Shown piece after piece: positions 24,457 through 28,763 of a stretch of DNA of 64,000 nucleotides. The notes under the pieces are model-generated. The model was not told the DNA's origin, did not search any database, and saw only the letters and a list, made by a program, of their open reading frames with translations. Position 1 is the stretch's first letter. Every line of letters begins with the position of its first letter. The DNA comes from Caballeronia turbans (GTDB taxonomy: Bacteria > Pseudomonadota > Gammaproteobacteria > Burkholderiales > Burkholderiaceae). The position numbers and the translations under genes are program-made. The stretch covers positions 310,001 to 374,000 of the forward strand of contig FCOD02000004.1 in assembly GCA_001544655.2 (NCBI GenBank), written 5' to 3'.

Positions 24457-25914
24457 CTACCGCTCCAGATTTCCGAAACAGACGTACTTCGCCTCCAGAT
24501 ACTCCTCGACGCCCGAGGACGCCCCCTCGCGTCCCATCCCGGACTCCTTGATGCCGCCGAACGGCGCGACTTCGTTGAAGACGAGGCTGTCGTTTACGCC
24601 GACGACACCGCATTCGAGCGCTTCCATCACGCGAAACGCGCGGCTGATATCCGCCGTGTAGAAGTAAGCCGCGAGCCCGGTGCGCGTGTCGTTCGCGAAC
24701 GTGATGACGTCGTCCTCGTCCCTGAACGGGAGCACGCTCGCGATCGGCCCGAGGACTTCGTCGCCGCACACGCTCATCGACGGATCGACGCCCGTCAGCA
24801 CCGTCGGCCTGAAGAAATTCGATCCGGGCGCGACACGCGAACCGCCCGCCGCGACCGTCGCGCCGAGCCTGACCGCTTCATCGACGAGACTTTCGATGCG
24901 CGTCACCGCCGCGTCGTCGATGAGCGGGCCGATCTGCGCGCCTTCGTCCAGCCCGTCGCTCACCTTGAGCAACGCGACCTTCGACACGAGCTTCGCGACG
25001 AAGGTCTCGCACACGTCTTCATGCACGAAGAAGCGATTCGCGCACATCGCCGCCTGGCCCGAGTGACGGAAACGCGCATCGAGCGCGCCTTTAACGGCAA
25101 GGTCTATGTCCGCATCGTCGAACACGATGAAAGGACAGTTCGCGCCCAGTTCGAGCGACATCTTCTTCACGGTGGACGCGCACAGGCTCATCAGCCGCTT
25201 GCCTTCGTCGATGGAACCGGTGAACGACACTTTGCGCACATCCGGGCTCGCGAGCAGCGTGCTTCTGATCGGCTCGCCCTCGCCCGTGAGCACGGACAGC
25301 ACGCCGCGCGGCAAGCCTGCGTTCTCGCCGAGCGCGCACAGCGCGAGCGCCGAGTACGGCGTCTGCGGATCCGGATGATGAATGACCGTGCAGCCCGCCG
25401 CGAGCGCGGCGCCGACGCGTCGCGCGACCATCGACGAGGGAAACGTCCATGACGTGATCGCGCCACATACGCCGACCGGCTGATGCAGCACGCGGATGCG
25501 CTGATTGCGGCGCGGCGCGGGAATGTTGTCGCCGTAGATGCGGCGCGCTTCCTCGGCGAACCAGTCCAGATAATTCGCGGCCTGCGTGATTTCGGAGCGC
25601 GCTTCGTGCAGCGGCTTGCCTTGCTCGCTGCACAGAATGATGGCGAGATCGTCGCGATGATGCTCGACGAGGCGTGCCCACTCCCTCAGCACCGACGCGC
25701 GCTCGCGGCTGCTCCAGTTGCGCCAGTCCTGCAACGCCGCACTTGCGCACTCGATGGCATCGGTCACTTGCTCCGCCGTGACTTGCGGCACGGAGCCGAT
25801 GATCTCGCCCGTGGAAGGATTCGTGACAGGCACGCGCGGCAGCGAAGTGTTGTCGACCCAGGCGCCGCCGATATAAGCCGACTGCTCGAAAAGACTGGGG
25901 CACTGCAATTGCAT
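24457..25914 (-). CDS. Aldehyde dehydrogenase-family protein (GabD-like) lacking catalytic residues
   Basis: 485 residues, full length for succinate-semialdehyde dehydrogenase and alignable throughout (SERERASVLREW-like region, KVSFTGSIDEGKRLMSL, NEVAPFGGIKESGMGREGAS). Key residues are changed: the PWNFP asparagine is threonine (SWTFP, residue 157), the KP lysine that holds NAD(P) is histidine (IHHP, 180), and the catalytic cysteine of GQxC is alanine (GQAAMC, 289). Only the general-base glutamate remains (ELGA, 255). The frame is open and codon use normal, so a pseudoenzyme is more likely than random decay. Start at 25914 with GGAG. Confidence 0.85.
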   Translation of the reverse strand: MQLQCPSLFEQSAYIGGAWVDNTSLPRVPVTNPSTGEIIGSVPQVTAEQVTDAIECASAALQDWRNWSSRERASVLREWARLVEHHRDDLAIILCSEQGKPLHEARSEITQAANYLDWFAEEARRIYGDNIPAPRRNQRIRVLHQPVGVCGAITSWTFPSSMVARRVGAALAAGCTVIHHPDPQTPYSALALCALGENAGLPRGVLSVLTGEGEPIRSTLLASPDVRKVSFTGSIDEGKRLMSLCASTVKKMSLELGANCPFIVFDDADIDLAVKGALDARFRHSGQAAMCANRFFVHEDVCETFVAKLVSKVALLKVSDGLDEGAQIGPLIDDAAVTRIESLVDEAVRLGATVAAGGSRVAPGSNFFRPTVLTGVDPSMSVCGDEVLGPIASVLPFRDEDDVITFANDTRTGLAAYFYTADISRAFRVMEALECGVVGVNDSLVFNEVAPFGGIKESGMGREGASSGVEEYLEAKYVCFGNLER

Positions 25915-26053
25915 GGCTCGCTCCAATGCGTAAGGCGCTTCCTGCACGGTTCCATCGAGCTTAACGCATTTTTTACTCGCCATTCGCGACGCGCGCGGCA
26001 TCTCCGGTATACGAATGCGGCGGCGCATCGGACAACGCGCCGCCGCTGGGCGA

Positions 26054-27715
26054 TCAGTGGCTCGCGCCCTCGACCGCGCCGATGCCCGTTTCGGAACGCA
26101 CCGTCTGCGCTTCGAAGCCGGCCTTGTCGATGCGCGCACGCGCGGATTGGTCGGTCACCGAGAAGAGCCAGATGCCGATGAAGCCGATCGCCATCGAGAA
26201 CAGCGCGGGCGATGCATACGGGAACGGCGCGCTCGCGTAGTGGAATACATCGACCCACACGGCTTTGGAGAGCACGGTCATCACGACCGCCGAGAGCAGG
26301 CCGAGGAAGCCGCCCACGGCCGCGCCGCGTGTCGTGCAGCCGCGCCACAGCACCGACATGAAGAGCACCGGGAAGTTGGCCGACGCCGCCACCGCGAACG
26401 CGAGCGACACCATGAACGCGATGTTCTGCTTCTCGAACACGATGCCGAGCACCACTGCGACGATGCCGAGCACGATCGTCGTCATGCGCGACACACGCAG
26501 TTCGCTCGCGCTCGACGCCTTGCCCTTCTTGAACACGGTCGCATAGAGATCATGCGAAACCGCCGATGCGCCCGCAAGCGTGAGACCCGCGACGACCGCG
26601 AGAATCGTTGCGAACGCAACCGCCGAGATGAAGCCGAGGAACACGTTGCCACCGACCGCGCTCGCCAGATGCACCGCCGCCATGTTCGTGCCGCCGAGCA
26701 GCTTGCCGCCCGCATCCTTGAAGATCGGGTTGGTGCTCACCAGCACGATCGCGCCGAAGCCGATGATGAACGTGAGGATGTAAAAGTAGCCGATCCACGT
26801 GGTCGCCCAGAACACGGACTTGCGCGCTTCCTTTGCGTTGGGCACGGTGAAGAAGCGCATCAGGATGTGCGGCAGGCCGGCCGTGCCGAACATCAGCGCA
26901 ATGCCGAAGGAGATCGCCGAGATCGGGTCCTTGATGAAGTTGCCCGGCCCCATGATCGACGCCTTCTTCTCGTGCACATCGACGGCCTTCGCAAAGAGCG
27001 CTTCCGGACTGAAGTGGAATTGCCACAGCACCATGAACGCCATGAACGAAGCCCCCGCGAGCAGCAGGCATGCCTTGATGATCTGCACCCACGTCGTCGC
27101 GGTCATGCCGCCGAAGAGCACGTACACCATCATCAGCGCGCCGACGATCACCACCGCGATCCAGTATTCGAGGCCGAACAGCAACTTGATGAGTTGCCCC
27201 GCGCCGACCATCTGCGCAATCAGATAGAACGCCACGACGACGAGCGTGCCCGACGCCGCGAACGCGCGAATCGGCGTCTGCTTGAAGCGGTATGCGGCGA
27301 CATCGGCGAAGGTGAAGCGGCCGAGATTGCGCAGACGCTCCGCCATCAGGAACGTGATGATCGGCCAGCCGACGAGAAAGCCGATCGAATAGATGAGGCC
27401 GTCATAGCCATTGCTGTAGACCGCCGCCGAGATGCCGAGAAACGACGCCGCCGACATGAAATCGCCCGCGATCGCGAGCCCGTTCTGAAAGCCGGTGATG
27501 CCGCCGCCCGCGGTGTAGAACTCGGCCGCCGAGCGTGTCTTTTTCGCGGCCCATTTGGTGATGAAGAGCGTCGCGATCACGAACGCGATGAACATGGAGA
27601 TCGCGGTCCAGTTGGTCGCCTGCTTCACCGCCTGACCGAGGTCGCCGCCCGCGGCGAAGGCGCCGGCGGAGGCCGCGAAGAGCGCGCCTGCTGCGAAGAT
27701 ACGTTGCGGCTTCAT
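26054..27715 (-). CDS. actP: Cation/acetate symporter ActP
   Basis: 553 residues of the sodium:solute symporter family. An N-terminal hydrophobic segment ([20 protein letters not shown]) may be a signal-like helix, as in ActP; then come about 13 membrane helices, with [20 protein letters not shown] and [20 protein letters not shown] as the family signature near helix 2. It imports acetate and other short monocarboxylates. Its ATG overlaps the stop of the DUF485 gene by four bases; this yjcH-actP arrangement is the same as in E. coli. Confidence 0.95.
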
Positions 27716-28017
27716 GCGGCCTCCCGCTTGATCTGGTCCGTGAGTTCGTCATATGTGCTGTTGGCGTGGTGCACGTAGAGGCCCGTGATCACGACCGTGA
27801 AGACGATCACGAACAGGCCGATCGGCATGCCCCAGGTCATCACGCCCGCGCCCATCTTCGCGGCGAGCAGATCCTTGTTGAACGCGATGAGCAACACGTA
27901 GCCGTAGTAGACGACCAGCACGAGCGCCGTCAGCGTCCATCCGAGCTTCGAGCGTTTTCGCACCAGTTCGCGGTAAGCGGCGCTCGACTTGATTTTTTCT
28001 ACGACCTTGAGATCCAT
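27712..28017 (-). CDS. DUF485 inner-membrane protein (YjcH-like)
   Basis: 101 residues with two membrane helices ([20 protein letters not shown] and [19 protein letters not shown]) and a charged C-terminal tail ending [12 protein letters not shown]485 proteins precede SSS-family acetate/solute symporters and probably are a small partner subunit. The start at 28017 has AGGAG upstream; the ATG at 28032 belongs to the leader. It overlaps actP by ATGA, so the two are translationally coupled. Confidence 0.9.
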
Positions 28018-28763
28018 TTCCGTCTCCTGCATGAAAGTCTCTTCTCTGCGTGCGACAACGCCCGCGTTCGGCGCGGCGCGCGAACGATCAGCGATGCGTA
28101 TGAGTAAGGAAATCCCCGGGGCGGGGACGTCAACCGATGCTCTCGCGCATACATTTCAGGCGAGTTCTGTTTTCGATGCGCTGGAGACTAAGGTAAAAGC
28201 GCGCGCTTACCCGTTTCTTACGCGAGGCACTTTCTTTTGACGGGGTTTACGCGAAGCATGGCGCCTGCTGCCGTAACGCGCAACAGACGATCGAGCGTTC
28301 GCTCCCACAGCGTCAGCGCACAATCGGTGCCGACGTTTCACATTGCGCCATACCCTTTCCGAAAGCGTGCGAGACAATCCTCGCCCTGCCAGTTGTTCAG
28401 TAATTGCTGCACATTCCGATCCACAGCGTTCAGTGGAAATGGCATTAAACGCTATGGCGTTTTCATCCGTATTCAGCTATTAGTAGACTCGTCACGCACG
28501 TCACGCTACGCCGTGGCGAATCATGAGCATCTCTGGCTATAACTCGACCGTCAAAACCGGAGGCAGCTACGACACATCACAAGCATCAGGCTCGCGCTCG
28601 CTGACGTCGCCCAAGAGTCCTGTCCCGCGCGATTTCATCGCATGGCGAACGCATGCCTTCCGGGCACGCATTCGCTGAAACGCACACCGCGAGCATGTCG
28701 TGGCGAGGCGCCTGCCGGCGCGCTCGCTCATCAACGATCGGCCATCCCAAGAGGGAGGCGCCT
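28018..28763. other. Long divergent intergenic region between DUF485-actP and the RND efflux operon
   Basis: About 745 bp. It contains the promoters of both units. The parts at 28160-28240 and 28420-28500 are AT-richer than average. One weak 51-codon frame (28523-28678) is listed separately. No regulator gene flanks the efflux operon, and no operator-like palindrome was recognised. Confidence 0.5.
28523..28678 (+). CDS. Weak candidate micro-ORF
   Basis: 51 codons beginning MSISGYNSTVKTGGSYDTSQ and ending with a basic tail before TGA. The Ser/Thr/Gly-rich start resembles the unstructured N-termini of secreted or effector proteins, but no Shine-Dalgarno precedes it and nothing else supports translation. 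It may be the remnant of a larger gene or noise in the intergenic region. Confidence 0.2.
   Translation: MSISGYNSTVKTGGSYDTSQASGSRSLTSPKSPVPRDFIAWRTHAFRARIR

Follow-up and report, generated by a model that had tools for sequence, protein, structure and literature searches.

A GabD-like protein without the catalytic cysteine in Caballeronia is probably a maintained pseudoenzyme

Caballeronia are soil bacteria. The window analysed here is the whole of a 64,000-nucleotide stretch of DNA from Caballeronia turbans. The gene in question, on its minus strand, encodes a full-length aldehyde dehydrogenase (ALDH) resembling GabD, a succinate-semialdehyde dehydrogenase (SSADH). Its catalytic cysteine is replaced by alanine, and comparison with related sequences suggests that the protein probably does a different job from aldehyde oxidation. 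The features of the locus are collected in Table 1. The mechanical list of open reading frames (ORFs) has a 560-residue ORF with a GTG start at this gene. We judge this ORF over-long because GGAG precedes the ATG at 25914 and because the start of the protein and the adjacent upstream sequence are conserved in Caballeronia; we take that ATG to be the start. The names of the two upstream genes are presumptive. They come from an earlier sequence-only reading of this DNA and, for actP, also from our own reading, not from a family search.

Table 1. Features of the Cys-less ALDH locus, in window coordinates
Feature	Position	Strand	Remark
Gene of the putative GabD-like ALDH pseudoenzyme (catalytic Cys replaced by Ala289)	24457-25914	minus	485 aa plus stop by translation
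ATG start with GGAG directly 5' (TTGGAGCGAGCC ATG)	25912..25925	minus	kept in most aligned Caballeronia loci
Thr157 codon (oxyanion Asn in catalytic ALDHs)	25444..25446	minus	
His180 codon (cofactor-binding Lys in catalytic ALDHs)	25375..25377	minus	
Ala289 codon (catalytic Cys in catalytic ALDHs)	25048..25050	minus	Cys291 two codons on
Conserved block AAAATGCGTTAAGCTC	25957..25972	minus	some 43 nt 5' of the start; no second perfect copy in the genome
actP-type symporter gene (presumed)	26054..27715	minus	upstream neighbour of the Cys-less ALDH gene
DUF485 gene (presumed)	27712..28032	minus	overlaps actP by a few bases

The protein belongs to the ALDH superfamily: residues 19-478 matched PF00171 over the full profile (1-461 of 461) with 519.2 bits. 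The best NCBIfam models were those for GabD (NF008415, 596.2 bits, residues 1-481) and SSADH (TIGR01780, 593.1 bits), and the scores fell below the curated cut-offs of 828 and 646.35, respectively. Alignment to the GabD of the same genome ran without a gap up to residue 480, with 240 of 479 positions identical (50%), and alignment to E. coli GabD (3jz4) spanned residues 5-481. The description of the protein in the sequence-only reading as SSADH-like from end to end was correct.

That reading had also named three replaced residues and a retained one, and the numbering held in both alignments. Ala289 occupies the position of the catalytic Cys, Thr157 that of the Asn of PWNFP and His180 that of the Lys of KP, and Glu255 is kept, as is Cys291. 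We found three further losses: Gly258Ala, Phe388Leu and Ser446Phe. From general superfamily roles, we take position 157 to be the oxyanion Asn, 258 the second Gly of ELGG, 289 the nucleophile and 388 the Phe of EEIFGP. The window protein was compared with 40 Cys-bearing ALDHs, made up of 28 paralogues from its own genome and 12 others (L061, with a disturbed frame, and L030 were omitted). Both the Cys and the oxyanion Asn were present in all 40. Thirty-two columns were identical in at least 39 of these 40 sequences; the consensus of the Cys-less clade keeps 28 of them and changes N157T, G258A, C289A and F388L. Among 11 SSADH-like sequences, 137 columns were invariant, and at 24 of those, one or both Cys-less subclades have a different consensus residue. 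The standard ALDH mechanism is impossible without the nucleophile, so the window protein is not expected to carry out standard ALDH catalysis.

Could the altered residues be sequencing errors in an ordinary, catalytic GabD, or unusual residues that still work? The automatic annotation of a relative, WP_115783716.1, as an NAD-dependent SSADH would favour an ordinary enzyme. However, identical residues recur across many species in genomes that were deposited independently, the scores missed the cut-offs for GabD and SSADH, and Cys to Ala takes at least two base changes. Ala289 and Ala258 were found in 32/32 Cys-less copies recovered by two genus scans, and the genome of the window matched 33 other ALDH paralogues, of which the 29 fetched all keep the Cys. 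Neither chance nor sequencing error is credible, since Ala289 is in all of these copies, the change needs two or more substitutions and the paralogues retain Cys. Sequencing error was ruled out by the orthologues, and an ordinary catalytic GabD is very improbable.

The search for ALDHs with the altered residues thus yielded a family spread over Caballeronia and Paraburkholderia. In Caballeronia, 26 of 58 genomes matched at E<=1e-170; one match (G029, L086) is an ordinary Cys-bearing GabD, leaving 25 Cys-less copies, 20 of the window type (A) and five of another type, B, at 66-70% identity. In Paraburkholderia, 8 of 144 genomes matched; that of G481 bears the Cys, and the other seven are Cys-less and all of type A. 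A scan of 398 genomes of the family gave matches in 2 of 25 genera at E<=1e-172. Wider scans of the order (399 genomes, E<=1e-176) and the class (369 genomes, E<=1e-178), each scoring a few top candidates per genome, returned the window's own Cys-less copy only; the order sample lists just one other genome of the window's genus. An exact DNA pattern, which misses variants such as L100, likewise found only the window's own copy in 399 genomes of the order. No match to the Cys-less ALDH was seen in viral contigs. Six records of a plasmid collection hold copies of at least 78% identity, one of them covering 95% of the length only. A Cys-less copy on P. caffeinilytica plasmid p1 (L108:8001-9452) is the protein annotated as an NAD-dependent succinate-semialdehyde dehydrogenase (WP_115783716.1), a name that is probably wrong.

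All 23 Cys-less rows of our tree were monophyletic (100/100) on a stem of 0.56 changes per column and split into two branches, B (99/95) and A (100/100). The closest Cys-bearing row was a gene of the Paraburkholderia genome G368 (L088; 99/93). The tree tool flagged long branches among the other rows. The tree used 18 type-A copies; L057 and L060, which are broken or truncated, were left out of it and of the clade counts. The 27 subclade-A rows of the column comparison include the identical pair L047/L099 and the pair L100/L101, with the same motifs and identity. Position 180 separates the branches. It is Lys in 5/5 members of subclade B, and in subclade A it is His in 24, Leu in one and Ser in one of 26. 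We read this as stepwise loss, in which Cys, Asn, Gly, Phe and Ser changed before A and B split and Lys180 later, in the window's subclade only. Chemistry thus went first and a cofactor contact afterwards, since B keeps Lys180 while A varies. The drift at position 180 in subclade A looks like a lost cofactor contact rather than a new functional residue. Of the three altered residues named in the sequence-only reading, the Cys and Asn changes hold across the clade, apart from an Ala157 in one species; the Lys to His change is later, and its position is variable.

We next consider the constraint on the gene. Between the window and 13 other species, the ratio of nonsynonymous to synonymous substitution rates (dN/dS) of the Cys-less gene was 0.060-0.099, with a median of 0.083. 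For the catalytic-type GabD of the same 13 genomes, whose assignment used the PWNFP motif as motif evidence, it was 0.045-0.106, with a median of 0.069. All 13 pairs share the window's sequence, at synonymous distances of 0.27-0.57. Constraint on the Cys-less gene is close to that on catalytic GabD and slightly weaker. Flanking genes gave dN/dS values from 0.03 to 0.19, with those of DUF485 and USP mostly above that of the Cys-less gene. Full length is retained by 31 of the 32 copies of the two genus scans; the TGA inside L098 sits at codon 484 and is the normal end. The sequence-only reading had proposed orthologue dN/dS and a look for frameshifted orthologues as checks, and both came out in favour of an open frame under purifying selection, with L057, L060 and L103 as the broken or truncated copies. 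These last copies are what would be expected of a pseudogene caught before its frame decays. Set against that idea are the full length of nearly all genus-scan copies and a dN/dS near 0.08 over such synonymous distances, close to that of a working enzyme. A recent pseudogene was ruled out by the orthologues and dN/dS, and we give this explanation the lowest probability of all.

What might be maintained is suggested by the pocket. Human SSADH (hSSADH) has Cys340/Glu306 as its catalytic pair and Arg213, Arg334 and Ser498 as substrate-binding residues; Lys214/Glu515 belong to a second shell, and Cys342 is the redox partner (PMC11681614). Spacing and alignment of homologues, rather than direct alignment to the human protein, place these sites at 289/255, 165, 283, 446, 166/463 and 291. 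Arg165, Arg283, Glu255, Glu463 and Cys291 are kept, the Ser498 position is Phe446, and in place of Lys214 subclade A has Arg166 and subclade B mostly Lys. Across 31 clade members, seven of these eight literature-defined positions were invariant, with one gap at 463, versus 215 of 485 columns overall. This set of 31 rows excludes L099, L101 and L102. A self-chosen list of 34 pocket positions (23 invariant, P 0.004) was biased, including positions at which the clade differs, and was set aside in favour of the eight. Glu255, Cys291, His284, Arg281, Arg165 and Arg283 are invariant in 31/31 members, and His284 and Phe446 are specific to the clade. Had the pocket no function left, more variation in it would be expected.

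Taken together, the sequence data argue strongly for a maintained pseudoenzyme, of whatever kind, that is not a dehydrogenase; the monophyly of the Cys-less clade, purifying selection near that of GabD and the invariance of most of the altered pocket all point to the retained, full-length pseudoenzyme that the sequence-only reading had proposed. With moderate confidence, we favour a protein derived from a GabD-type SSADH and most likely ligand-binding or regulatory. It would keep a GabD-like oligomer fold without NAD(P)-dependent dehydrogenase activity. Its old pocket (Arg165, Arg283, Glu255, Glu463 and Cys291, with the clade-specific His284 and Phe446) would bind a small carboxylate or aldehyde-acid, and the protein would serve in sensing, sequestering or regulation. 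The later loss of cofactor contact in the window's subclade would fit a cofactor-free function. This specific ligand-binding mechanism is put forward tentatively, at a little below an even chance. Perhaps a GabD lost first its chemistry (as in B, where the cofactor Lys stayed) and then its cofactor contact (as in A), and so became a metabolite sensor that does not depend on the cofactor, or else an enzyme with new Cys291/Glu255/His284 chemistry? We consider this doubtful but possible. If it were true, living Caballeronia would still contain both stages, open to direct comparison.

Several observations weigh against the favoured explanation. The gene is patchy (25/58 Caballeronia and 7/144 Paraburkholderia genomes). 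Copies are truncated in Candidatus Burkholderia humilis (L060) and in the Paraburkholderia genome G455, where L103 ends early, and a second, more distant copy in C. arvi (77%, on another contig; L057:6001-7449) has a broken frame. Given this patchiness and these copies, the gene can be lost and is dispensable in some strains. Its dN/dS exceeds that of GabD in 10 of the 13 pairs and, in 10 of the 12 comparisons made, that of actP; deeper pairs between B lineages reach 0.18-0.20. Two of the replacements are not fixed everywhere: one species (L044/L079) has Ala at position 157, and Phe388 is still present in L100 and L101. The conservation of the pocket loses weight in that several retained residues are general ALDH features that may serve folding, and Ser446Phe may close the carboxylate site. 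In 12 of the 21 upstream regions compared, a conserved block that is described below went undetected (score 10 or less).

Two other accounts of a maintained protein have to be weighed. The Cys-less protein might be a regulatory subunit that enters mixed tetramers with the catalytic GabD paralogue and tunes its activity or stability. The gapless alignment to GabD would suit such a partner, as would the presence of a catalytic-type GabD, 92-96% identical to that of the window genome, in 13/13 tested genomes with the Cys-less ALDH. In G368, the Cys-less gene and the Cys-bearing relative nearest to the clade in the tree (54% to P0001) are about 2.3 kb apart, and GRM1 microcompartment loci have two ALDHs, one with the Cys replaced by Ser or Pro (PMC4207490). 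However, in none of the other loci examined did a Cys-bearing GabD gene adjoin the Cys-less one, a search at E<=1e-200 found the closest sister type in one of the 58 Caballeronia genomes, and a role in assembly alone would leave the conservation of the pocket unexplained. We regard this account as unlikely. Somewhat less likely again is a neofunctionalised enzyme that would catalyse a different reaction in a new active site made up of Cys291, Glu255 and the clade-specific His284. The invariance of these residues, together with Arg281, Arg165 and Arg283, is in keeping with it, and there are known pseudoenzymes whose catalytic residues have migrated (PMC10211241). Retention of Cys291 is not new, however, as hSSADH has its counterpart (PMC11681614), and loss of the oxyanion Asn, with loss of the KP Lys in the window's subclade, makes a standard dehydrogenase mechanism unlikely. 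A GabD-derived pseudoenzyme with a ligand-binding or regulatory role remains our preferred explanation.

Does the neighbourhood indicate a function? We compared 22 loci, 21 of them Cys-less. The sequence-only reading had placed the gene next to DUF485-actP, which is so in the window and many Caballeronia loci: the pair precedes the ALDH gene in 10 of 21 Cys-less loci. Ten others lie elsewhere, and L045 begins near a contig edge; its genome, G044, had no such actP at E<=1e-200. This actP matched at that threshold in 8 of 15 genomes searched, and in six Caballeronia actP loci (L121-L126, at least 92% identity, with actP-like matches of 61-63% left aside), no Cys-less ALDH was found within the 10-kb stretch. 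A role in an actP operon is weakened by these separations in both directions, and the DUF485-actP neighbourhood is weak evidence of function. No conserved functional partner was recognised in the neighbourhoods examined, in which family searches covered 20 neighbour proteins.

Other neighbours vary among the loci. In 7 of the 10 Caballeronia actP-ALDH loci, the region upstream of DUF485-actP has genes for EutB/EutC (ethanolamine ammonia-lyase), confirmed by Pfam in L032 (L032:1454-3636) and seen as similar ORFs in L033, L040, L042, L046, L049 and L096. In their place, the window, L031 and L095 have RND-efflux-type genes. A large MGH1-like/GH63-type glycosidase gene (window:20804-23878) is beside the ALDH gene in all 10; its listed start, which overlaps the preceding symporter gene, is probably too early. 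In G368, three genes stand in a row on one strand (L089:8410-13711): those of the Cys-bearing GabD relative, of CitF (citrate lyase alpha) and of the Cys-less ALDH. The P. caffeinilytica plasmid copy, from a record beyond the 21 loci, lies downstream of ABC transporter genes. The surroundings of L057 in C. arvi include a MaoC-type gene and ORFs that, by eye, resemble thiolase and EtfBA.

Nine of the 21 upstream regions contain the upstream block, AAAATGCGTTAAGCT, at a distance of 26-58 nt from the start and with 13 or more of its 15 bases matching; one of the nine is that of P. franconis, where the neighbours differ. Perhaps it is part of a promoter, and perhaps the Cys-less ALDH gene is transcribed from a promoter of its own, with actP in a separate transcription unit. 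A scan with the sigma-70 consensus gave 0 promoter-like sites (0.7 expected), none at the block, and four terminator-like sites were found with 3.8 expected. A regulon sharing the block was considered and rejected: besides the perfect copy, the genome has three copies with two mismatches, and a reversed control gave one match. A GC-rich inverted repeat without a T run lies just 3' of the actP stop codon (window:26017-26046) and could end the actP transcript; it is missing from some aligned Caballeronia loci.

Among titles in the open-licence literature, we found no Cys-less GabD clade like this one. Searches of the same literature returned nothing on a Caballeronia pseudoenzyme, a Caballeronia SSADH or Cys291 in A. 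baumannii; papers found for loss of a catalytic cysteine had titles unrelated to ALDHs, and the only other bacterial ALDHs without the Cys were those of GRM1 loci. In databases, at least one relative of the protein is named as an active dehydrogenase. The clade combines an ordered loss, catalytic relatives in the same cells and selection nearly as strong as on a working enzyme, which allows a direct test of why an enzyme fold is kept once catalysis has gone.

Compared with known systems, the window protein is most like GabD, the NADP-dependent SSADH of the ALDH5 type with its CXC motif (E. coli 3jz4; NF008415). It has about the same length and shares Glu255, Arg165, Arg283, Cys291, Glu463 and Glu386, but differs in Cys289Ala, Asn157Thr, Gly258Ala, Phe388Leu, Ser446Phe and, in the window's subclade, the loss of Lys180. 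Human ALDH16A1 is also a member of the superfamily without catalytic residues that has been retained for other functions (PMC10650815). However, it has 802 residues (PMC11681614) and is said to have none of the catalytic residues, whereas the window protein keeps the general-base Glu and most of the GabD pocket, and its origin would be GabD. The second ALDH of GRM1 loci is bacterial as well, and for this protein, with Ser or Pro in place of the Cys, the authors suggest a scaffold or regulator (PMC4207490). It sits in a microcompartment locus beside a catalytic ALDH (PMC4207490). In the window, by contrast, neither a second ALDH nor a recognised microcompartment gene adjoins the gene, and the Asn and Ser have been lost as well.
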